Origin: Candidatus Zixiibacteriota bacterium
GTDB lineage: Bacteria; Zixibacteria; MSB-5A5; GN15; JACZUZ01
DNA: 64,000 nt
Assembly (NCBI GenBank): GCA_024280775.1
Contig: JAJRPM010000015.1
Location: 1 to 64,000, forward strand
Reading direction: 5' to 3'
Made by a program: the position numbers and the translations under genes. Position 1 is the stretch's first letter; every line of letters begins with the position of its first letter. The notes beneath the pieces are model-generated. The model was not told the DNA's origin and did not search any database. It saw nothing but the letters and a program-made list of their open reading frames with translations. Shown in pieces: positions 36,445 through 59,343 of the stretch.

Positions 36445-38622
36445 TTATCTGAACAATGACAAGACTCCCTGAGGAATCTGGTTTGCCTGGGCAAGCATCG
36501 CGGTGCCGGCCTGGACCAGAATCTGGTTCTTGGTGAACTCAGACATTTCCTTGGCGATATCAGCGTCACGGATATTCGACTCTGAAGCGGTCAAGTTCTG
36601 TGAAGCGATACGCAAGTTACGCAAGTTGGATTCCAGAGTGTTTTTCTGGAAACTTCCAAGCGTTCCACGTGTGGTGGAGACTTCGTCAATCGCGGCGTCG
36701 ATGATAGCTAGGGCGTCTTGCGCTCCGGCTGTTGATGTGACATCGATGTTGGAAAGGCTTCCAAACATGTTACCGGCGATATCCTTACCAAGAGACTTGG
36801 CAGCCATACCACGGAGACCGATTGAAGCAGTCTGACCAACTGATCCACCAATTTGGAAGACAAGTGACTGGTCAGTGTTAAAGATGGTTTCGGTTCCACC
36901 AGTTGAAGCCAGGCCATATCTCAACTTTATTGATTGAGTGCGGTCGGCAGTAAAGATAACTGAATCTTTACCAGCGGTGACTGAAGTCGCCGGGCCGGCG
37001 TCCAAACGAACGTCAAACTTTGCGGCTTTGGCGTCGAGCAACAAGTTACCGACGTTGATACCGGTCTGACCATTGGCAATCGCCATCTTGACAGTGCCCA
37101 TATTGGCTGTGCCAGTTGCCGCATCCTGCAAGGTAACGGTGCCGGTGGCGCCATATTTGACAGAACTGATTGTGTTAGTGAAGTTGTTGAAACTCACCAA
37201 TGCGTCAGTTCCGGAATTTGCAGTAGTATCGTTAGTCAGATTCAACACATTCTCAAGATCGCCAGTGGCAAGGCCAAGAGCATTATGCTTGATGGTGTAT
37301 GATGAACCCTCGTCACGAGTGGCAAACTCAATCTTATCGCTAGAGGCGCCTGTGACTGTCGAAATGATGTCGTTGGCTGTGTTATCACCCTGTACTTTTG
37401 CGAAAGCTGTTCCCAACGCGGTGTTAATGGCAGTGTTGAGCGCCGCCACTGAGGTATATGCGCCGTTTGCAAGAGTTACAGCAGATGTAGCTCCTGAGTT
37501 TGAGGCGGTGCTGACTGTGAAGTTCAAAGTATTGTCTGAAACACCACGGTCGGAGGTATTCGCGGCAAAAGTGAAGTAGTTGGCAGTTGCATCATTGGAA
37601 GCTGATGAAACTTTGAAGGAGTAATTGGCTCCTTCATTAACTGCTTCAAAACGAAGGCTGTTGGTGTTGATTGCTGCGGAAACCTTACCCTGCAATGATG
37701 TATTAGCAGTGATAGCGGTTTGGAACTTGGCGGCAACCTGGGCTGAAGTGTCACCAGCTACGAGGGCTACTGTCAAAGTCTGGTCACCAGTGGTGGCTTC
37801 GCCATTCTCCTGATAGTTGATAACGACGGTATAGTTACCGGCGGTTGAAGCATCAACTGTAGCGGCGCCAACTGTAGCGGCTGAATCAACATTGGCTTTG
37901 TCCGCTGTGGCGGCCAAGGTCAATGTATTTGCGAACGCATCAGTGATTTTCACTGAGCCGGAGGTTTTCTTGGCGACATCGGAGGCCTGAAGTACGTCGA
38001 TATTGTGAATCTTCTCTTCAAGGTTTATCGGTGTGCCATTGCCGACCAAAGACAGGCCGAGCGACGTGGTGTTCAATGTCGCGGTAGCGTCAGAGGTTTT
38101 GGTGGCAGTGATAGAATGTGTGCCAGATTTCAAACCGGACTGCACAACTGAAATACCGGCGCTGTTTGCGCTGGTGATGGTTGCGATATTGTCTTTGGAA
38201 CCGTCAAGCAACTTCTTGGTGCCAAACTCAGTATTCGCGGCGATACGATCGATCGTCTTCAAAGCGTTTCCAATTTCAGCCTGATCAGCGGCGAGCTGAT
38301 TGACATCGTTGAAACCTTCGTTAGCGGCATGAATCGCCAGCTCTCTCATGGAGACGAGCAATGAGTTGATTTCAGTCAATGCGCCCTCAGCAGTTTGGAT
38401 CATGTTGATTGATCCCTCTGAGTTGTCAATCGCACGGTTGAGACCGGCAATCTGAGCGCGGAACTGTTCGGAGATAACGAGACCAGCCGGGTTATCGGCG
38501 GCTCTGTTGATGCGGAAACCTGAGGACAATTTCTCCATTGATTTGGAGAGCATGTTCGATGAATTTGCGAGGTTTCTGTTCGCGTTTAACGCGGCTATGT
38601 TGTTGTTAATACGAAGCGCCAT
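36445..38622 (-). CDS. flagellin, extra-long
   Basis: Filament protein of 725 residues; typical flagellins have 280-550. The N-terminal D0/D1 part (MALRINNNIAALNANRNL to about residue 170) and the C-terminal part (about 620-725, with 'LRNLRIASQNLTASESNIRDADIA' pieces and the ending IPQGVLSLFR) are well conserved. Between them is a Thr/Ser/Ala/Asn-rich variable region of about 450 residues, likely exposed on the filament. AAGGAGGA eight bases before the ATG is a strong ribosome site and also a possible CsrA target. No second flagellin is in the window. Confidence 0.95.
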   Translation of the reverse strand: MALRINNNIAALNANRNLANSSNMLSKSMEKLSSGFRINRAADNPAGLVISEQFRAQIAGLNRAIDNSEGSINMIQTAEGALTEINSLLVSMRELAIHAANEGFNDVNQLAADQAEIGNALKTIDRIAANTEFGTKKLLDGSKDNIATITSANSAGISVVQSGLKSGTHSITATKTSDATATLNTTSLGLSLVGNGTPINLEEKIHNIDVLQASDVAKKTSGSVKITDAFANTLTLAATADKANVDSAATVGAATVDASTAGNYTVVINYQENGEATTGDQTLTVALVAGDTSAQVAAKFQTAITANTSLQGKVSAAINTNSLRFEAVNEGANYSFKVSSASNDATANYFTFAANTSDRGVSDNTLNFTVSTASNSGATSAVTLANGAYTSVAALNTAINTALGTAFAKVQGDNTANDIISTVTGASSDKIEFATRDEGSSYTIKHNALGLATGDLENVLNLTNDTTANSGTDALVSFNNFTNTISSVKYGATGTVTLQDAATGTANMGTVKMAIANGQTGINVGNLLLDAKAAKFDVRLDAGPATSVTAGKDSVIFTADRTQSIKLRYGLASTGGTETIFNTDQSLVFQIGGSVGQTASIGLRGMAAKSLGKDIAGNMFGSLSNIDVTSTAGAQDALAIIDAAIDEVSTTRGTLGSFQKNTLESNLRNLRIASQNLTASESNIRDADIAKEMSEFTKNQILVQAGTAMLAQANQIPQGVLSLFR

Positions 38623-38886: not shown

Positions 38887-39075
38887 CTATTTTCTATTGG
38901 TTCTCTCAGTAATATTCTTAGTATTTTCAGCTCTTAGCTTTTCAATTACATCGCTGAATCGACACACTCGCATATGCAATGGGATTTCTCCAACTCCATA
39001 GAGAGGTATGTATTTATCCGTTATTTCGACAAATGCCCTGGAATCTTCACTGTTATAGCGATTGATTTTGCTCAT
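38887..39075 (-). CDS. small protein of unknown function upstream of flagellin
   Basis: 62 residues from the ATG at 39075, or 66 from 39087. AGGAA lies 12 bases before the first and one base before the second, so 39075 is preferred. The sequence is charged, with 'RAFVEITDKYIPLYGVGEI' in the middle and a Lys/Arg/Asn-rich end; no membrane segment and no known family. It is co-oriented with flagellin, 264 bases away, and with the glycosyltransferase gene behind it. Confidence 0.5.
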   Translation of the reverse strand: MSKINRYNSEDSRAFVEITDKYIPLYGVGEIPLHMRVCRFSDVIEKLRAENTKNITERTNRK

Positions 39076-39265
39076 TGTTGTGGACATTTCCTATTTGAAC
39101 ATAGACCATACTCGCTCGAAAACGATAAGTGACACCAAACGGTTTCAAATTGAACATCATTTTGCGCTTGTTTCAAAACAAGACACAATACTAGAGGATG
39201 ATTGTGTTGATGGAAGGCGGCAAAACCTGTGTCGAGAGTACAACGTGCGCGAAATCACACAGTTA

Positions 39266-41815
39266 TTAGCTAACCGGGCTTTGCTGAGTTTCGATCGCGG
39301 TCAGGCGCTCTTTGGCGATAGCATGATTCGGATTAGCCTGTAAGAGGCGCCTATAGCCTACTTCGGCCGCTTGAATGCCGCCCAGGGACAGATAGCAATC
39401 AGAAAGAGCCAAGAGCGCGTTCTGGTCCTCAGGCTCTTCTCGCAGCAGCGTTTCATAGACAGCCAGCGCCTCGGCGCCGCGTTCTAACTTCAGGAGCAGG
39501 GCCCCCAAAATGAAACGTGACTCGCGATCATCAGGGGCTATTGGCGCATAGTTGGCCAATCCTTCCACCGCCGCCTCCAGTTGACCGGTTCTTGCTAGAG
39601 CGATTGCATGATTCCGCATCAAATGGGCAGAATGCGGATCCTTCTGAAGGGCGCGCATGTACCATTCGCAAGCCTCTGCATTATTCTCAAGCATCAGATT
39701 TGCATCAGCCAATCCAGTAAGAACTTTGCAATCACCTGGAGATTTTTTCTCGGCGACAGTGAGCGAATCCAGAGCTTCGGCGGTTTGACCGACTTTCAGC
39801 TCGACTCTGCCACGCGAGGCAAGATAGTCAGCTCTATGGGATAGCGAGTTGCGATGCTTGTTAAGCAAATCCAGAGCCTCACTTGCTCTGCCGGTTCCTA
39901 GAAGCAGATCACTATATCGCGAGCATATGTTTCCAGAATTATTGGTAGCTTGCATAGCATTCCGCAAAGTGGCTTCTGCCGCTGAATAGTCGCCGACTTC
40001 CTCAAAAGTCTCAACCATACCCAGGTAGGCCGGTTCACGTTCAGGATACACTTCGATTTCACGACGGAAGAACTTTTGCGCAAGCGCTCGATTAGACAAT
40101 TTGTAACACATCCAACCGGCGCGAGCCGAAGCATCCAAATAGTCTGGCTCTTCTTGCAAGGCTTTCTGGTAGGCCGCCAGTGCGGTCGCATAGTTTTCCA
40201 GGGCCTCGGCGGCTATACCGATATTGTAATGAGCATTAGCCCGGGAATTCAGGTGTACGATAATCAGTGTACTAGTTTGCTGATGCTCGGAGTAGTTCTC
40301 TTGTAACTTCAGATATCTGTTGTAGCTTTCTATAGACTCAGTGAATCTCTTTTGAGCTCTTTGGATATGCGCCAACATTATGACACAATCGAGATATTCA
40401 CTGTCATTATCCAGCGCTTGCAAACACGCTTCTTCAGCGAGATGGTATTCCTTGAGCGAATAGTTTGCGGTCGCTAGTTGATGATGAGCCATCAAGTGAA
40501 TGCTGCCAAATTCCAAAGAAGACGGTTCGGTAAGCTCTATGACGCGAGTCGCGTGTTTTATTACTTCTCTACAGTCGGCGTCATTGTTGAGATTGCTTTT
40601 CGCGCGGATTAGTTGCGCAAGGTTAAAATGTGCAAAAGCGTTGTTATCGTCCTGCTTAATTTGCTCGCGCAACAATGTCATTGAGCGCTGATGTTTGAGT
40701 TTCATTTTCTCAGGGGCGAGATCATAGCCATGATGAATCAGCCCTACCGGACAGCGCAACTCTTTCATATCAGTTGCAAAATTCAAACGATTGTGGACAA
40801 TCCCCTCATATTGCAATCCCAATTCACGCCGGAATATCCTGACAGAAGGCAACACTGTGGTTTCCTTGCCAGATCGCTCCGCGACATTGTAGACAGTCAA
40901 TGAAAGTAAATCGAATTCTGTCCTTTGCAGACATTCTTTCAGTTTGGGAATGTCTTTTTCTACCAGTCGCTCGTCGGCATCGATTACAAACAGCCAATCT
41001 GAGGACGCCTGCTCAAGAGAATAGTTTCTGTGCTTGGAAAAGTTCCCTTCCCACTTCTGGTGGAATATCTTACAGCCGAATGACTCCGCTATCTTGATAG
41101 TCCTGTCCGTTGAGCCAGTATCGACAAGGATTATTTCGTCGGCGATGTCCCTCACTGAAAACAAACAGCCTTCAAGGAATTCCTCTTCGTCCTTGACTAT
41201 CATGCACACAGACACAGTCGGACGATTCGTTACGGCTTGCTGATACATGCGTAACTCCGGAGAGCTTTCTATCTTCTGCAACCCTGCGGCAACTATGCGC
41301 GAGGATAATTCTCGCATGCCAAGCCGCTGAGACAATTCTGCCCAATGTAGATAGGCGTCCTGCATCAAAGGATTGACTTCGATCGCTGTTTCAAAGCATA
41401 GAGCCGCGCGTTGATATTCTCCAAGCTGAACATAGGCTTGGCCCATTAGCTCAATGAGATAACCAGCGTTTGTGTGGCATTGTGTGCGCAATGACTTATT
41501 ATCAGCCTCGGCTAAGACATTATCAATCCCGGACATGAAGGTTTCACCAATCCGGCACACATCTGACCAGCGCTTCAATTTGTGGTAAAGGATTGAGGTC
41601 AGCAGAGCATCTTCGCAATGATGCAACTTGGCGAACTCTGATTCCGCTCCATTTTCGAGCCACTCTGCGAGTTCACTAACTCCTGCACTCCGCAAGCGGC
41701 TGTGAAGTTCAACAGCGTTATCACTAGTAAGAACTGGCGGACGTTGGACAACACGCTTCTGCCCTGTAGCTTGCTTCTTTACTGACTTGCTTTTCGTCTG
41801 CTTTTTCTTCACCAC
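39266..41815 (-). CDS. TPR protein with embedded family 2 glycosyltransferase
   Basis: 849 residues. An N-terminal basic tail and TPR-like repeats (about 80-190) are followed by a GT2 domain (about 200-420). The latter begins 'VSVCMIVKDEEEFLEGC', has the nucleotide-sugar motif 'LVDTGSTDRT' and DXD-like 'VIDADERL'. At least eight further TPR units follow to the end. TPR-bearing GT2 enzymes often modify surface or flagellar proteins, the TPR holding the acceptor. Being between fliW and flagellin, it is a likely flagellin glycosyltransferase; the sugar is unknown. Confidence 0.85.
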   Translation of the reverse strand: MVKKKQTKSKSVKKQATGQKRVVQRPPVLTSDNAVELHSRLRSAGVSELAEWLENGAESEFAKLHHCEDALLTSILYHKLKRWSDVCRIGETFMSGIDNVLAEADNKSLRTQCHTNAGYLIELMGQAYVQLGEYQRAALCFETAIEVNPLMQDAYLHWAELSQRLGMRELSSRIVAAGLQKIESSPELRMYQQAVTNRPTVSVCMIVKDEEEFLEGCLFSVRDIADEIILVDTGSTDRTIKIAESFGCKIFHQKWEGNFSKHRNYSLEQASSDWLFVIDADERLVEKDIPKLKECLQRTEFDLLSLTVYNVAERSGKETTVLPSVRIFRRELGLQYEGIVHNRLNFATDMKELRCPVGLIHHGYDLAPEKMKLKHQRSMTLLREQIKQDDNNAFAHFNLAQLIRAKSNLNNDADCREVIKHATRVIELTEPSSLEFGSIHLMAHHQLATANYSLKEYHLAEEACLQALDNDSEYLDCVIMLAHIQRAQKRFTESIESYNRYLKLQENYSEHQQTSTLIIVHLNSRANAHYNIGIAAEALENYATALAAYQKALQEEPDYLDASARAGWMCYKLSNRALAQKFFRREIEVYPEREPAYLGMVETFEEVGDYSAAEATLRNAMQATNNSGNICSRYSDLLLGTGRASEALDLLNKHRNSLSHRADYLASRGRVELKVGQTAEALDSLTVAEKKSPGDCKVLTGLADANLMLENNAEACEWYMRALQKDPHSAHLMRNHAIALARTGQLEAAVEGLANYAPIAPDDRESRFILGALLLKLERGAEALAVYETLLREEPEDQNALLALSDCYLSLGGIQAAEVGYRRLLQANPNHAIAKERLTAIETQQSPVS

Positions 41816-41886
41816 AAATGGACTCTCGATCTCTATATCACTTCACAATATGTCACTTTACAGTATGTCAGTTACAATACCTGCCC

Positions 41887-42855
41887 CTAAACTAATGCCG
41901 GTACGCGCTCGATGATTTTTGATTTATCCTGTTGCGGAGCGTCGATGCCATACTCTTGTCGCATCCAGTCGATAGTGCGTGGGACACCCTCTTCGAGAGT
42001 GGCGTTCAGCTGATGATCGAATTCATCCTGCGCCAGCGCAATCGCCGGGCGCTTGTTTACCACATTGTGTTTGTCTTCTGGCATGTAGGTCACCAGTGAC
42101 GGATCAGCGCCAGTGTAGTTTAGGATGATATTTGATAGTTCTTTTACTGAACGGTACTCGGTTCCGCCAATGTTGTAGACTCGTCCGGGAGTGAAACGTT
42201 CACAGACATTTGCCAAGGTGGGAATGAAATCATCGATGTACATGAACACCCGATGATACCCCTCAAAGACCTCATAGGGAATCCCCATCAAAGCGCGATA
42301 GCAAAACAGACACACGACAGAGCGGTATCTATGGTAGTGCTCACCGGGACCATAGGCGTTGAAGAAGCGCAAGCGCACAATCGGTGACTCGAAGCGCTTC
42401 TCGAAATTCATTATTTGCACTTCATTCACCCACTTGGTGATTGCGTAATCATTGTGTTGCATGATCGGCTTCTGTAGCGGCAATTCTTCGGAGAGAATCG
42501 GCTCTTCACTCTCACCGTATATCTCTGATGAAGATGAAAAGATGAGTTTGAAGCCTTTGCGCTTTTGCCATTCGAGGATGTTTCTGGTTCCGATTACATT
42601 TGTCGCCCATAGGGTGTCGTAGTATTCTTCACCATTGATGCGACCAAACTCAGCGGCAAGGTGATAGACGTAGTCGTAGTCGTTTTCGAAAACTCTTTCC
42701 AATTGACGATGATTGCTAACATCAGCGCGGATATAGTTGTCGAGTCCATGATGCTGTAAGTCACAGCCCCATACTTCATGCCCGCGTCTCTGCAATTCTG
42801 CCATCAGCGGCTTGCCTAGGGTGCCCATGCACCCGGTGATTAGTATCTTAGCCAT
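41887..42855 (-). CDS. NAD-dependent sugar epimerase/dehydratase
   Basis: Extended short-chain dehydrogenase of 322 residues. The NAD site is ITGCMGTLG (GxxGxxG) at residues 6-14, the catalytic pair is in DYAITK (YxxxK), and 'SSSEIYGESEEP' supplies the Ser/Thr. It would act on a nucleotide-linked sugar (4-epimerisation or dehydration). Its place in a glycosyltransferase block suggests it makes the donor sugar. Confidence 0.88.
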   Translation of the reverse strand: MAKILITGCMGTLGKPLMAELQRRGHEVWGCDLQHHGLDNYIRADVSNHRQLERVFENDYDYVYHLAAEFGRINGEEYYDTLWATNVIGTRNILEWQKRKGFKLIFSSSSEIYGESEEPILSEELPLQKPIMQHNDYAITKWVNEVQIMNFEKRFESPIVRLRFFNAYGPGEHYHRYRSVVCLFCYRALMGIPYEVFEGYHRVFMYIDDFIPTLANVCERFTPGRVYNIGGTEYRSVKELSNIILNYTGADPSLVTYMPEDKHNVVNKRPAIALAQDEFDHQLNATLEEGVPRTIDWMRQEYGIDAPQQDKSKIIERVPALV

Positions 42856-42895
42856 CTTCTCTACACTCCTTGTATTGATTCTTTCTGTTTCTTTT

Positions 42896-43489
42896 CTATA
42901 GTCTGCGAACCGCTACAATCGCTCGCGAATCGCATTCCGGTTTGTCGTCGAAAAATCCATCTATCACTACAGTAGCAAAACCGATTTCCTCTAACTCCTC
43001 AGGCTCCCAAGAACTCCTGTGCAACTGGAACTCCTCACCGCCCATACCGAATGCATCACCTTCTTGGGGATGATTGCCTGCCGGGCAGTGAACGAAGATA
43101 TTCTTTCGTGCGATGCGCTCGACATCCTCCAAAAGCTTCAGGGCCACAGGCTTTGTCAGATGCTCAATGAAATCAACTAGCATCACACCATCGAAACTAT
43201 CCCGGGTAAACAAGTCTGCGACTTTTGTTGCGTCATAACGAACCGCAACCACACTGCTGTCACATATTCTGCGTTTGATGTACGGCTCATGTATTTCAAC
43301 ACCTACACGCACTGGAGCTTTCAGCGCTCCAATCATTTCGAAATGCCCGGCGCCAAGCTCCAATACAGATTTACAGTCTTTTAACTGCTCCTGAAGGACC
43401 TGAATGATTTGGCCTCGTTTGGAATCAGCGGCCGCATGCGACGCTACGACTTTTCCAACTCGTGATGGTTGTGTAATTACTGTTGGCAT
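42896..43489 (-). CDS. SAM-dependent methyltransferase
   Basis: Class I methyltransferase of 197 residues. Motif I is VLELGAGHFEMIGAL and the acidic motif II is GVEIHEPYI; then 'FDGVMLVDFIEHL' (motif IV/V) and 'KNIFVHCPAGNHPQEGDAFGM'. Methylation of a sugar is plausible given the neighbours: it starts six bases after the large glycosyltransferase gene and is followed by the epimerase. No substrate motif is known. Confidence 0.8.
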   Translation of the reverse strand: MPTVITQPSRVGKVVASHAAADSKRGQIIQVLQEQLKDCKSVLELGAGHFEMIGALKAPVRVGVEIHEPYIKRRICDSSVVAVRYDATKVADLFTRDSFDGVMLVDFIEHLTKPVALKLLEDVERIARKNIFVHCPAGNHPQEGDAFGMGGEEFQLHRSSWEPEELEEIGFATVVIDGFFDDKPECDSRAIVAVRRL

Positions 43490-43495
43490 AGATTG

Positions 43496-46400
43496 CTATT
43501 CTCCCAATATTGCCGAGGTCAGATGATGCACCAAGCGCGAAGGGCGCCAATACTCTCGCATCCAATCATAGGTTTCCTGTTGTAGCTGTAATAGCTTGTC
43601 GGGCGCTTTCAGTAGCGCCTCTATTCCAGCCTTCAGTTCAGATTCATTTCTCACTATTCGCCAGGGCAAAGTGTCGGTACGTAGTGTCTCAGCGATTTTG
43701 TTTCTGCCGAACTTATCTACATAGACGAAATTGACTAATCCCAGCGCCGAGTTTTCCAGTGATGACATGCAATAGTAGCCATCATTAACTTGCATTTGAT
43801 CCAGGGCGATTTGTCCCTGACGCTTGAGGTTCAGCGATTCTTCGTAGGATAAGCCGGTCTTTATGGCTAACGCTACATTGGTATATCTTGAGCTAAGCTC
43901 ACGAACCACTTTTTCCAGCTCCGCAGAGTTTTTGATTGGCGGATCAGTAGGCGTTTGGACCACTAGTGTTTTCTTTGACGGCTCAATGATTCTCTTGTAG
44001 CGTTCTGCGTCTATATCGAGCCAGGTCGGAACATAACTGGCATCATCCCAGCGACGTTTCAAATCTAGTTGCCCTGTTGCGATGCGCCACTTCTTATCAT
44101 TCACGAAGTGATTATGGTACCAATCAGCATTCATCCTAGTTGCGGTAGACCCGAAAAAGAAGGCCACGCAAGGTTTTTTAGCTGAATAGTCGGCCCAATC
44201 TAGCTTGCCCCAGAGCATGCCATCGGTGTCATCGACAATACTATTGCCACTTGCTGAACCGGCATAAGTCGAAGCGCTGAAGACCAGGACATCCGCTTTC
44301 TCCGCTAAACTTCTCAGGCGCTCATCCTCTGAACGAGTCAATTGGTTATTGATTGGGTCATTGCCGGCTGAGTCATGCAATCTCAGCGCTATGTCTCTGT
44401 CGAATCCACGCGTTTCCTTGAAAGTAACCACGCGGCAAAGGTGTTCGGTGTGTCGGTTTATCGCTCTAGCATACATTGCGGCGTTGCCACAGGGATCTGC
44501 GGTTCCTATCCAGAGGATGCGCTTTCCGCCGGGCTTTTCTTCCGGGAAATCAGGATCCACTTCATAGCCCAAACGCTCGGTTGAGCCCATAGAACATTCT
44601 CGCGGACCAGGTTGCGCTATTGTCGTTTGTTGCGCTTGGCTCTGCCTCTCAAAATAGTCCTGCATGTATTGCTGGTATTCTTTTTGCGATTTTGGAATAT
44701 CGGCTTGATGAGTCACCTGACCGGGATGCAATCGGTAATACACCAGGGCTTTAGGAATAAACTCAAATTCAAAGTGATAGCCCATCTTGTGCCACAAGGC
44801 TCCATCGGCTCCGTAGCCAATCTTGCCGCCCAATGACTCGTCGAAGTAGTCGGTTTTATCCAAAACACTCTTGCGGAACATCACCGAGCAACCATGAATC
44901 GGGTTGCCCTTGAACATGTCATCGACAAAAGTGGCATTTTCTAACGGGGTCACATTGGCTCTATCCTTGAGCTGTGATTGCGCGGTCATATAGAAGAAAT
45001 CGCCATATACCCAACCCAATTGAGGCTTATTGGCCAGAACTTTAATGTTCTCCCATACTTTATCAGGATGGTACGCATCATCGGATGATAGCCAGGAAAT
45101 GTATTCACCTTTTGAATGCTTGATTGCGCTATTGAGCGCCGCTGAAACGCCTTTGTTTTCCTGGGTGATAATCGTGATCTTATCAGGATATTCTGATTTG
45201 TACTTCGCGAGAACTTCCTGCGTATTATCAGTCGAGCCGTCATCAACTACTACTATTTCGCAATGGGGATAGGTTTGAGACAGAGCTGATGAAAGCGCTT
45301 CGGGCAGATAGTCCGCACGATTGTAAGTGGGAATCACTATTGACACTAAGCCCAGATCCACAGACTTATCTATTGAGGCATCCGGTGACTCGATCGTCGA
45401 CTTGATGACATTGGCAATTTCTTTGACCTGTTTTTGCAGTCCGAAGTTTGATTCTATGTGCGCACGATAAGCCTTTGCTTGCTCTGCTCTGTCACCTTCT
45501 ATGCTCTTCTTTACAAGTGACAAGCAATCTTCGGGGGTCAGATAGCGGCATGTATCAGGATAAATGTTGTCAGCTCCAAACCAATCATGTACTAAAGGAA
45601 TCACACCGCTGGCCATGCCTTCGGCAATTGACAAATGAAAAGATTCAAACAATGAGGTTGAGATTACGTAATCCATCTCCTGATAGAAAGCTGGCATATC
45701 CTCTATCCAACCGTGATAGTGAATATCAATTCCTAGTTTTTGCGCCATATCTCGCATGTACAGCTCAATACGAGAGTCCTGATGTTTACCAGCGATGTGC
45801 AATTCGAATTCAGGATCCCAGTCATGGATAGCTTTGAAGCAATACAACAGTAACTGGGGATTCTTCTTGTAATTGATATAGCCAACCGAGGCGATTTTCT
45901 TGCCGTACTTTTTCCCTGCCGGTATTTGAAACTTCTTCAAATCGACAGCATTGTGGGCTATGCTACAAACTACTGAAGATGGAATCCGGCCGGTCATTAG
46001 ATGCTTTACAGATTCATTTACGAAGACAAGGTTATCTACCTTGCTCCAATCTACTTGTGAGGGCATTTCGGTGAACGCTTCGTAGCTATGCAGTCGGCAG
46101 ATTATCGGGCAGAGCTTCGGAAGATGATTTGTCGCCTGAATCAATAGCGAATCACACCAATCGAACCATGCAACATCGCACCATTCCAGCATGCGTTTCA
46201 TATCACCGACACTGCCCTGCTGGAATGAGCGTGTTTCATTGTTGACGCTTAGATCGGTGATAATCTCGGCCAGGAAAGAAGGTTGCGTAGCGAAAAATGC
46301 TATTTTCTTGCCTGTTACAATGCTACTCGAACTGTCATCCGACTTTTTCTGCGCTCCTGCGTCAAGTAGCTCTGAAATAAGCCCAGAATTGACTCCCTTG

Positions 46401-47074
46401 ACAGTTGTGGTTTTTGATTCAGATATATCTATGCTACTCGCTTGGTCAACACGCGTTTGCCACTGAGAAAACTCCTGTTCAGGTTGCGCTTTGCGCCATA
46501 CTTTCAAGTATCTCTTCGCCCTGCGCGATTCTTTGGCATCGAAGCACAACTCCATTAGCGCCGTAAAACTCTCTTCGGGATTCTCAGCCAGGCGAATTGA
46601 CTCGCAAATGGAGTCCAGCGCGGGTTTGAATTGCGCTAGTTGCGCGAATGTGACACCTAAGTCTCGAAGCATCGCAGAGTCTGCAACCCCGATATCGTAA
46701 GCGGCGCCGAATACCTCTGCGGCAACTGCATACTGCCCTTGTCGGAAATACACTAAGGCTAGATTGTGATAGGCATTGGGATTTGTCGGATCGTTTTGTA
46801 ATGCGATTTTGAACCAATCGACGGCTTCGTCCTGTTTGTCCAATGTTACAGCTAGACAACCGGCGAGCATCATTTGTTCATCGGTAGCGTCACTTCGCTT
46901 GGCTATGGCGCAAACCAATGGGTAGGCCTCTGCTGGCTCTCCACTTACCAGTAGAGCATTTGCTTCAACCGCCTTCTTGGTGTATGCCGTATCAGAGTGT
47001 TTGGAACTGCTATTATCTAATAGGGCTGAATCTGAAGATTGGGTGTTTTCAATACTTGTTGATGCGGGTTCCAT
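43496..47074 (-). CDS. multidomain glycosyltransferase (TPR, GT4, GT2 and a third GT-like domain)
   Basis: About 1192 residues. From the preferred start: TPRs at 30-200; a GT-B (GT4-like) domain at 255-560 with 'IASVGYINYKKNP' and 'SLFESFHLSIAEGMASG', the E-x7-E type donor motif; a GT-A family 2 domain at 575-770 with 'VSIVIPTYNRADYL', 'VVVDDGSTDNT' and 'WLSSDDAYHPD'; and a further region at 850-1192 with 'RILWIGTADPCGNAAMYARA', which resembles another GT-B unit. A longer frame to 47227 overlaps fliW and lacks the protein-like character, so the ATG at 47074 was chosen. Three transfer modules on one chain suggest that it builds an oligosaccharide. Confidence 0.85.
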   Translation of the reverse strand: MEPASTSIENTQSSDSALLDNSSSKHSDTAYTKKAVEANALLVSGEPAEAYPLVCAIAKRSDATDEQMMLAGCLAVTLDKQDEAVDWFKIALQNDPTNPNAYHNLALVYFRQGQYAVAAEVFGAAYDIGVADSAMLRDLGVTFAQLAQFKPALDSICESIRLAENPEESFTALMELCFDAKESRRAKRYLKVWRKAQPEQEFSQWQTRVDQASSIDISESKTTTVKGVNSGLISELLDAGAQKKSDDSSSSIVTGKKIAFFATQPSFLAEIITDLSVNNETRSFQQGSVGDMKRMLEWCDVAWFDWCDSLLIQATNHLPKLCPIICRLHSYEAFTEMPSQVDWSKVDNLVFVNESVKHLMTGRIPSSVVCSIAHNAVDLKKFQIPAGKKYGKKIASVGYINYKKNPQLLLYCFKAIHDWDPEFELHIAGKHQDSRIELYMRDMAQKLGIDIHYHGWIEDMPAFYQEMDYVISTSLFESFHLSIAEGMASGVIPLVHDWFGADNIYPDTCRYLTPEDCLSLVKKSIEGDRAEQAKAYRAHIESNFGLQKQVKEIANVIKSTIESPDASIDKSVDLGLVSIVIPTYNRADYLPEALSSALSQTYPHCEIVVVDDGSTDNTQEVLAKYKSEYPDKITIITQENKGVSAALNSAIKHSKGEYISWLSSDDAYHPDKVWENIKVLANKPQLGWVYGDFFYMTAQSQLKDRANVTPLENATFVDDMFKGNPIHGCSVMFRKSVLDKTDYFDESLGGKIGYGADGALWHKMGYHFEFEFIPKALVYYRLHPGQVTHQADIPKSQKEYQQYMQDYFERQSQAQQTTIAQPGPRECSMGSTERLGYEVDPDFPEEKPGGKRILWIGTADPCGNAAMYARAINRHTEHLCRVVTFKETRGFDRDIALRLHDSAGNDPINNQLTRSEDERLRSLAEKADVLVFSASTYAGSASGNSIVDDTDGMLWGKLDWADYSAKKPCVAFFFGSTATRMNADWYHNHFVNDKKWRIATGQLDLKRRWDDASYVPTWLDIDAERYKRIIEPSKKTLVVQTPTDPPIKNSAELEKVVRELSSRYTNVALAIKTGLSYEESLNLKRQGQIALDQMQVNDGYYCMSSLENSALGLVNFVYVDKFGRNKIAETLRTDTLPWRIVRNESELKAGIEALLKAPDKLLQLQQETYDWMREYWRPSRLVHHLTSAILGE

Positions 47075-47145: not shown

Positions 47146-47688
47146 CTATACACTGACTGCTTCGTGTCTTGCTGACGTTTTCTTTGACTGTGTTTCTATT
47201 GTATCTGAAGCAAACAGTGGTTGGCAAACCGAATGACGCGAGTTGGCCAACACCAGTTGCTTGGCTTGTTTGGTGTTTGTGTTTATTACAATTGGTCCCT
47301 GAAGATTGGCTGTCATTTTTCGCGGATCTCCGGGGGCTGTGACTATTACAAAGGTTTCTACTTCTGAGCCGTCAATTACACCGATGTCCTCAACTTCTCT
47401 GGGATTGACTTCAATACTGTAGTCCTCGAAAAACAACGCAGGGTTAATCATCAGGAAAGCCAGCTCAGGCTCATCCACGGCTTGTAGCCAAATAAACGGC
47501 GCCATTTCCTCATTCTCAACGAGGATGAAGCGCTTGTAGTTTTCAAATCCTAAGACCGGTTTTTCCAAGTCGATGATTCGGTCCACTCCGACTTTCAAAT
47601 CTCCGAATCGTGTAGTTACCACTACTTTGATTAGCATCTCTGATACATCACCTGTAGCGGTTTGTGTGTTTTCTTTCAACATTCTCAT
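47146..47688 (-). CDS. fliW: flagellar assembly factor FliW
   Basis: Antagonist of CsrA that is displaced by free flagellin. 180 residues. The core has 'GFENYKRFILVE', 'PFIWLQAVDEPELAFLMINP' and 'VIVTAPGDPRKMTANLQGPI' in parts, all typical. The last 35 residues are an extra tail with Cys and Ser. csrA is two genes upstream and flagellin is in the same cluster, so the FliW-CsrA-flagellin loop is very likely present. Confidence 0.93.
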   Translation of the reverse strand: MRMLKENTQTATGDVSEMLIKVVVTTRFGDLKVGVDRIIDLEKPVLGFENYKRFILVENEEMAPFIWLQAVDEPELAFLMINPALFFEDYSIEVNPREVEDIGVIDGSEVETFVIVTAPGDPRKMTANLQGPIVINTNTKQAKQLVLANSRHSVCQPLFASDTIETQSKKTSARHEAVSV

Positions 47689-57924: not shown

Positions 57925-59343
57925 ATGGTAGGACCGACATCAAACTACAATATTGGCCCAAAGGCCGCGCGCTCTGAGGCTCATGAGGCTTCGCCGCATA
58001 AGACAATAGCGTTTGTCTTTGCGTTGTTGAGCTTCGCACTAGCATTGGTCAGCTTCCCTATTGACGCCAGCGGGTCTGTTCTGGGTGGAAACGTTTCAGA
58101 CCCGGGGATTCCTGATACAGTCAGAATTGACTCAGTGGATGGCCTTCGCGGTGGAGCTGTTGTCGTTCCGGTGAATTTCTTCGCAGACGAAACTCTCGGA
58201 GGACTCACTCTCGTTTTGCGCTTTGATCCGGTAGCGCTGATTCTTGACTCTGTATCGTTGGCGGGGACGCTTGCCGAACCATTTTCGATTAGAATCTTCA
58301 ACATTGATTCAACGACCGGTATTCTTGATGGAGCCGCTCTAAGTTTTGACAGCGCCAATGTAATACGACCCGGCTCTGGGGTTTTGGCAAATCTGCATTT
58401 TACTGTGTCAGATTCAGCGGCGGCAGGGGTCTACCTCATTGACACTACTACAGTAGACCCACCGGGGCCTGCTTTTTTGCAGACATCTTTCAGCACAGTT
58501 CAAACTGATTCTATTAACGGCAATGAGACAGTGCTGCCGACTTTTGTAGCCGGCTCTATTACAGTTGCAGACCGCGCCGCGACTTTCGATTCGGTTTGGG
58601 TAGACACAGTCACTGGCGCTCAGGGCGAGACAGTCACTGTGGATGTGTTTCTACACAACGAGTTGCCACTGACTATAATTAAGATTCCTCTGAGATACAG
58701 TTCGCCCAAGCTTCTTTTTGACACGGTTCTTTTTGCAGGCACACGCGGGATTCTTGCCGGGCAATCACGTCAAAGCCAGGTCAATACTGATTCGCAGGAG
58801 GTGCTCATCACACTAGAGTACCTGGATAGCTCCCCATTGACACCGGGTGACGGCCCGATAGCGCGTCTGAGGTTCACAATTGACAATACTGCCCCTAATG
58901 ACACTTTCTCGATTGACAGCGCCGCTTACCTGGGAATTGTGCCACTCGAGCTAACAACAACCATCGCTGACGGATCTTTTCGATTTACACCATTTTTCCA
59001 TCCAGGAGCGATCATCGTTGACTTTAGAACTGATGTGGATGACGGCGAGAACCCCAATCTTCCGACTGAATTCAGACTTAGGCAGAATTTTCCGAATCCT
59101 TTCAATCCGACTACTAAGATAGGATTCTCATTGCCGCGAGGCTCAGAGGTGTCACTCGAAGTATATAACTTGTTGGGGCAAAAGGTTCGTACTTTGGTAA
59201 ACGGGTATCGCCAAGCTGGGGACTATACAGTGGAATTTGATGGCTTGAGTGACAGAGGCTCAACCGTCGCATCAGGTATGTATTTCTATCGAATCAAAAC
59301 CGCCGCTAGAACCGAAACGCGCAAGATGACACTGTTGAAATAA
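57925..59343 (+). CDS. secreted protein with two cohesin-like domains and type IX sorting domain
   Basis: 472 residues. A signal-like hydrophobic stretch (residues 27-45) is followed by two cohesin-type beta sandwiches: about 55-210 ('VDGLRGGAVVVPVNFFADE', 'LRFDPVALILDSVSL') and 215-360 ('QGETVTVDVFLHNELPLT'). The C-terminus has QNFPNPFNP at 387-395, 'VYNLLGQKVRTLV' and 'ASGMYFYRIKT', the type A sorting domain of the type IX secretion system, so the product should be exported and anchored at the surface. It is a plus-strand island between two flagellar operons. Its ligand (a dockerin-like or carbohydrate partner) is unknown. Confidence 0.88.
   Translation: MVGPTSNYNIGPKAARSEAHEASPHKTIAFVFALLSFALALVSFPIDASGSVLGGNVSDPGIPDTVRIDSVDGLRGGAVVVPVNFFADETLGGLTLVLRFDPVALILDSVSLAGTLAEPFSIRIFNIDSTTGILDGAALSFDSANVIRPGSGVLANLHFTVSDSAAAGVYLIDTTTVDPPGPAFLQTSFSTVQTDSINGNETVLPTFVAGSITVADRAATFDSVWVDTVTGAQGETVTVDVFLHNELPLTIIKIPLRYSSPKLLFDTVLFAGTRGILAGQSRQSQVNTDSQEVLITLEYLDSSPLTPGDGPIARLRFTIDNTAPNDTFSIDSAAYLGIVPLELTTTIADGSFRFTPFFHPGAIIVDFRTDVDDGENPNLPTEFRLRQNFPNPFNPTTKIGFSLPRGSEVSLEVYNLLGQKVRTLVNGYRQAGDYTVEFDGLSDRGSTVASGMYFYRIKTAARTETRKMTLLK

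Follow-up and report, generated by a model that had tools for sequence, protein, structure and literature searches.

GmaR of Listeria attaches N-acetylglucosamine (GlcNAc) to flagellin, and this single protein is both the flagellin O-GlcNAc transferase and the MogR antirepressor (PMC9638930). In Clostridium, a role in transferring sugars to flagellin has been proposed for glycosyltransferase family 2 (GT2) proteins with tetratricopeptide repeats (TPRs) (PMC13317340). In type B flagellin of Clostridioides difficile, GT1 adds GlcNAc, and GT2 adds two rhamnoses as well as their methyl groups (PMC5207246). The Caulobacter protein FlmG binds flagellin with an N-terminal TPR domain and carries a C-terminal GT-B domain (PMC7591256). 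Here, we describe a flagellar locus of Candidatus Zixibacteria in a stretch of 64,000 nucleotides (the window; contig JAJRPM010000015.1, assembly GCA_024280775.1) from a genome of 3.17 Mb. Between fliW and the filament flagellin gene, this locus encodes an 849-residue TPR-GT2-TPR protein (called T) and a 1192-residue enzyme with several transferase modules, and it likely makes an O-glycan and attaches it to the filament flagellin, with T adding the first sugar and the 1192-residue enzyme extending it. This is a prediction from genes and models, and the glycan on flagellin is putative.

T resembles GmaR of Listeria monocytogenes in a homologous GT2 domain of ~194 residues with an aligned DXD region, in TPR-type helical repeats on the same chain, and in a role tied to flagellin. 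Unlike GmaR, T carries TPRs both before and after its GT2 domain. T is also longer (849 residues, versus 637 in GmaR), and of the two only GmaR has a known donor sugar, GlcNAc. At E 1e-5, the C-terminal half of T matched only TPR proteins and not the GmaR antirepressor structure, in a set of structures that may or may not include the GmaR 141-637 chain. The C. difficile type B locus likewise combines a conserved first transferase beside fliC with a variable set of extension genes that includes one for methylation, but it consists of three GT2 genes, one of them methyltransferase fused, downstream of fliC (PMC5207246). In the Zixibacteria locus, a TPR-GT4-GT2-GTB fusion lies between fliW and flagellin, and a methyltransferase and an NDP-sugar (nucleoside diphosphate sugar) epimerase/dehydratase (SDR) are encoded there by genes of their own. 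FlmG resembles the TPR-GT4 part of the large enzyme in architecture; it transfers pseudaminic acid and suffices by itself (PMC7591256), whereas the large enzyme has two more modules. The flagellin glycosylation islands of enterobacteria are also variable, lie beside flagellin, and encode glycosyl-, methyl-, formyl-, amino-, and acetyltransferases; in the parts of that report available to us, 43 distinct glycosyltransferases are described and no common one is reported (PMC4875605), while in Zixibacteria a single initiator, T, is conserved across most of the phylum. Islands for flagellin glycosylation, transferases like GmaR, and fusions of transferases are already known. What is new is the combination in Zixibacteria of a single conserved initiator, swappable extension cassettes, and the TPR-GT4-GT2-GTB fusion.

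The TPR-GT2-TPR protein and the filament flagellin

The gene for T (39266 to 41815, minus strand; Pfam GT2, 2e-20, plus TPRs) encodes the proposed initiating flagellin O-glycosyltransferase. Its GT2 domain (residues ~198 to 391) is flanked on both sides by TPR arrays (Pfam TPR families) and aligns end to end with GmaR (PDB 22ao; E 2.9e-31, or 2.7e-32 with the domain alone). Residues D232, D279-A280-D281, E282, R326, and H341 are invariant across 53 relatives, as expected for a working GT2 enzyme. At two other loci (L144, 1343 to 5743, genome G054; L150, 3030 to 7421, genome G053), a single chain of ~1465 residues contains T in duplicate and carries a pair of GT2 domains and several arrays of TPRs.

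The proposed substrate is the 725-residue filament flagellin (36445 to 38622, minus strand; Flagellin_N, 6e-35; Flagellin_C, 5e-25). We examined the distribution of T and filament flagellin in 132 genomes of the phylum. Both were present in 88 genomes and neither in 32, with flagellin only in 4 and T only in 8, and several of these single-partner genomes are incomplete assemblies. The co-occurrence was significant in a Fisher test that ignores shared ancestry (p, 7e-19). T lies directly upstream of flagellin on the same strand in 73 of the 76 genomes with both genes on one contig. In family f17 (G119 to G122), T and flagellin are found together on a contig separate from fliW, and T therefore follows flagellin rather than fliW. 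The earlier note on this DNA had asked whether the block moves with the flagellin gene, and these results favor glycosylation; as contrary evidence, it had named relatives in which the same block is remote from flagellar genes, and our search for such an arrangement found none. As in other flagellin glycosylation islands, glycosyltransferase and sugar-biosynthesis genes adjoin flagellin, and this adjacency is conserved in the phylum. The Ser and Thr richness of the flagellin, which had also been taken as evidence, was rejected as such: the central Ser+Thr content of 23.1% is ordinary for the phylum, in which 48 flagellins contain 19 to 26%. fliW is retained even in families in which no flagellin was detected; at one such locus (L108, G106), the genes after it encode a radical SAM/SPASM protein and an S46 peptidase.

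One genome resembles a natural near-knock-out. G060 (L109, 2911 to 3874) has kept flagellin, but its GT4 gene is absent and its T is a 320-residue in-frame remnant from which the GT2 domain and the middle TPRs are gone. The N-terminal TPRs of the remnant (43% identical to a cousin) are joined directly to the last 92 residues (55%). G060 is a single assembled genome, and misassembly is possible. The joint absence of both transferase activities supports one pathway for T and the GT4 enzyme. Since the TPR shell stays an open frame after the GT2 deletion, a second, noncatalytic role for the shell is also suggested.

Modules of the 1192-residue enzyme and their partner genes

The large enzyme (43496 to 47074, minus strand; Pfam TPR, Glycos_transf_1, and Glycos_transf_2) is the proposed glycan-extending enzyme. 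We counted its residues from an ATG; the mechanical open reading frame (ORF) extends to a TTG at 47227, within fliW. The full-length AlphaFold2 model has four folded modules (mean predicted local distance difference test [pLDDT], 80.6) with disordered linkers at residues ~216 to 250 and 815 to 839, and its predicted template modeling score (pTM) of 0.45 leaves the arrangement of the modules uncertain. The GT4 module (residues ~241 to 571; 45362 to 46354, minus strand; Pfam Glycos_transf_1, 1e-14) has the GT-B fold and the EX7E motif of the GT4 family according to Pfam, the alignment, and the model, and E477 and E485 of this motif are invariant in the family alignment. The GT2 module (GT-A; residues ~571 to 800; 44675 to 45364, minus strand; Pfam, 3e-35) retains the SSDD, YGADGALWHK, and YYRLHP motifs of its family, as read from the alignment. 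Both modules thus look complete in the window enzyme. The GT2 module is degraded in relatives G129 to G131 and G124. Four fused enzymes (L089, L090, L091, and L087) have a GT2 module without DXD in an intact chain, so degraded modules are kept.

The third module (M3; residues 841 to 1192; 43496 to 44554, minus strand) had no Pfam match, and a sequence-profile search of solved structures gave nothing significant, so we turned to fold comparison. The AlphaFold2 model of M3 (pLDDT, 85.5; pTM, 0.85) was matched best by Foldseek to GT4-type GT-B enzymes, such as a methylmannose polysaccharide mannosyltransferase (E 3.7e-13) and PimA (E 2.3e-11), and M3 is accordingly modeled as a GT-B fold. However, the EX7E of the GT4 family is altered in M3: in a register taken from a weak profile alignment to the GT4 module (probability, 8%), G1099 occupies the position of the first Glu, here and in all seven relatives reaching it, whereas E1107, the second Glu, is kept. 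M3 may be a transferase of an unusual kind or may serve in binding instead, and because of this substitution, three active sites in the 1192-residue enzyme are not established. The suggestion that one polypeptide assembles a whole oligosaccharide therefore stands in part, with two modules that look complete, but the third motif is altered and the first sugar most likely comes from T, a separate protein.

We next compared the island between fliW and T at the 74 loci in which T was reached. T follows fliW directly, without an extension transferase, at 35 loci. The remaining loci have a TPR-only ORF (5 loci), a TPR-GT4 protein of ~545 residues (21 loci), a TPR-GT4-GT2 protein (1 locus), the TPR-GT4-GT2-GTB form (5 loci, including the window), a TPR-GT2-GTB protein (2 loci), or a TPR protein with a distant relative of M3 (5 loci). 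Extension transferases were found at 34 loci, always with T, and at 5 further loci the contig ends before T is reached. The large enzyme is thus an optional extension module of the locus. The TPR-only ORFs (208 to 244 residues; L146, L149, L130, L095, and L120) occupy the place of the TPR-GT4 gene and are possible adaptors or remnants. Among the loci with M3-like TPR proteins (L113, L121, L123, L126, and L159; families f15 and f16), the members scanned also encode an SDR, a DegT aminotransferase, a formyltransferase, and a hexapeptide transferase. Such genes would be expected where an N-formylated or N-acylated amino sugar is made, and they suggest a formylated amino sugar on flagellin.

Sister genomes differ in the number of modules. 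In family f10, there are three modules in G095, two in G096, and one in G094, and in family f1, G073 has a single module. On the tree of GT4 modules, the multimodule label needs 5 changes, at least 3 of them forced by well-supported branches, while many deep branches are unresolved. We therefore rejected a single origin of the multimodule enzyme; fusion and loss of modules probably happened repeatedly. A scan of 84,980 species with single-protein patterns, which reaches close relatives only, returned the TPR-GT4-GT2-GTB fusion in three Zixibacteria contigs and in no other phylum.

Two genes downstream of the large enzyme may supply or modify its sugars. A class I S-adenosylmethionine (SAM) methyltransferase of 197 residues (42896 to 43489, minus strand) contains motif I as LELGAGHF; its matches to Pfam MetW (5e-5) and NCBIfam MftM (3e-6) are both far under full-family level. 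The SDR (41887 to 42855, minus strand; Pfam Epimerase, 6e-39) has a YAITK catalytic motif, and its nearest solved chains are 8w3u/9ar1 (E 5e-83). Each of the 6 genomes in which the GT2-module motifs are canonical encodes the window-type SDR. It was not present in GT4-only genomes or in G129, G130, and G124, whose GT2 module is without DXD. M3 and a methyltransferase occur together in family f1 (the window genome, G074, and G072, with neither in G073), in f10 (G095, with neither in G096 and G094), and in f19 (G129 and G130, with neither in G128), and the methyltransferases are of different types among these families. The methylated sugar that the earlier note proposed stays plausible, as the three-module enzyme is found alongside methyltransferases of different kinds in several families. 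We treat the pairing of GT2 with the SDR and of M3 with methylation as a hypothesis, since the genomes are few and related.

Proposed pathway and alternative explanations

O-glycosylation of the filament flagellin is strongly supported by the homology of T to GmaR, by the way T and flagellin occur together and side by side across the phylum, and by the loss of both transferases in G060. In the proposed pathway, the glycan would be made and attached to flagellin in the cytoplasm, prior to export. T would bind flagellin via its TPRs, and its GmaR-like GT2 domain would place the first sugar, perhaps GlcNAc, on Ser or Thr. The N-terminal TPRs of the 1192-residue protein would hold it near the substrate while it lengthens the sugar placed by T with further sugars that differ among lineages: the GT4 module would add one sugar, the GT2 module would add a sugar supplied by the SDR, and M3, if active, would add a further sugar that the methyltransferase may methylate or cap. 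Several observations weigh against this pathway or parts of it. The co-occurrence counts come from related genomes, and G060 indicates that flagellin can persist without these enzymes. M3 is without the canonical first Glu of EX7E, the M3-bearing protein of family f18 has no neighboring methyltransferase, and G123 has a partly intact GT2 module without the SDR.

We considered whether T alone glycosylates flagellin, with one sugar, while the 1192-residue protein, the methyltransferase, and the SDR serve another surface glycan and merely occupy a tolerant insertion site. The island site is indeed variable and takes different genes, and the 35 loci where T has no extension transferase indicate that T does not need one. 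However, extension transferases at this site always occur with T and bear TPRs as flagellin transferases do, and in G060 the extension transferase and the catalytic domain of T are missing together. In the island of the window, we saw no gene for glycan export or for a polymerase, and we regard this explanation as unlikely.

GmaR is both a transferase and an antirepressor. T might likewise serve chiefly to regulate or chaperone flagellin, as the antirepressor half of GmaR does, with glycosylation secondary. The TPR shell that persists as an open frame in G060 and the TPR-only ORFs preceding T at 5 loci would fit such a role. In contrast, the catalytic residues of T are invariant in the 53 relatives, and at E 1e-5 its C-terminal half retrieved TPR proteins but no GmaR antirepressor structure from the set searched. 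We regard a chiefly regulatory T as quite improbable. A target other than flagellin, either another exported protein or a small peptide modified by SunS-like S-glycosylation, is more improbable still. SunS was the second-best match to T among solved structures (E ~1e-18) and was also aligned by the GT2 domain, but the GmaR match is much better, and T follows flagellin in rearranged loci. The NCBIfam SunS model scored 84.7 bits on T, under its cut-off of 350, and the context is flagellar rather than that of a bacteriocin, with no bacteriocin-like precursor seen beside T. Initiation by T on flagellin followed by extension by the large enzyme thus remains the preferred reading.

Gene order of the locus and its meaning

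On the minus strand, the gene order is flgI, flgN, flgK, csrA, flgL, fliW (47146 to 47688; Pfam FliW, 6e-39), the large enzyme, the methyltransferase, the SDR, T, and flagellin. The flagellar surroundings comprise csrA, flgL, flgK, flgN, flgI, flgH, flgA, and a flagellar rod gene. The gene positions and the single orientation between fliW and flagellin given in the earlier note were borne out, except that its left edge at 38887 is that of a 62-codon ORF (38887 to 39075, minus strand). This ORF had no tblastn match in relatives, the same-genus genome included, and we rejected it as probably not a gene. The genes from fliW through T look like one operon because the gaps between them are only ~6 to 71 bp. 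The gap between T and flagellin is 643 bp, of which only the 160 bp adjoining flagellin are conserved in the same-genus relative, and a simple pattern search found no sigma-28-like promoter there. No protein of the block had a Pfam or NCBIfam match to Maf transferases or nonulosonic acid (NulO) synthesis enzymes. Within the flagellar cluster but on the opposite strand, an ORF at 57925 to 59343 encodes a cohesin domain and a C terminus resembling FlgD-Ig or a secretion tail.

The locus suggests that Candidatus Zixibacteria have a system for glycosylating flagellin; our literature search on the phylum and flagella returned no title devoted to this subject. It is conceivable, although we propose this only tentatively, that the large protein acts as an oligosaccharide synthase bound to flagellin and anchored by its TPRs, and that its modules come and go with the genes for supplying or modifying their sugars (GT2 with the SDR, GTB with a methyltransferase, and a GTB variant with the aminotransferase and formyltransferase), always atop one conserved GmaR-like initiator. 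If so, the sequence of sugars on the filaments of uncultured bacteria would be readable from gene content. The clean split between a conserved initiating enzyme and interchangeable extension cassettes, together with the near-knock-out in G060 and the natural losses of modules, makes this locus a good system for asking which module adds which sugar and how multidomain protein glycosyltransferases evolve.

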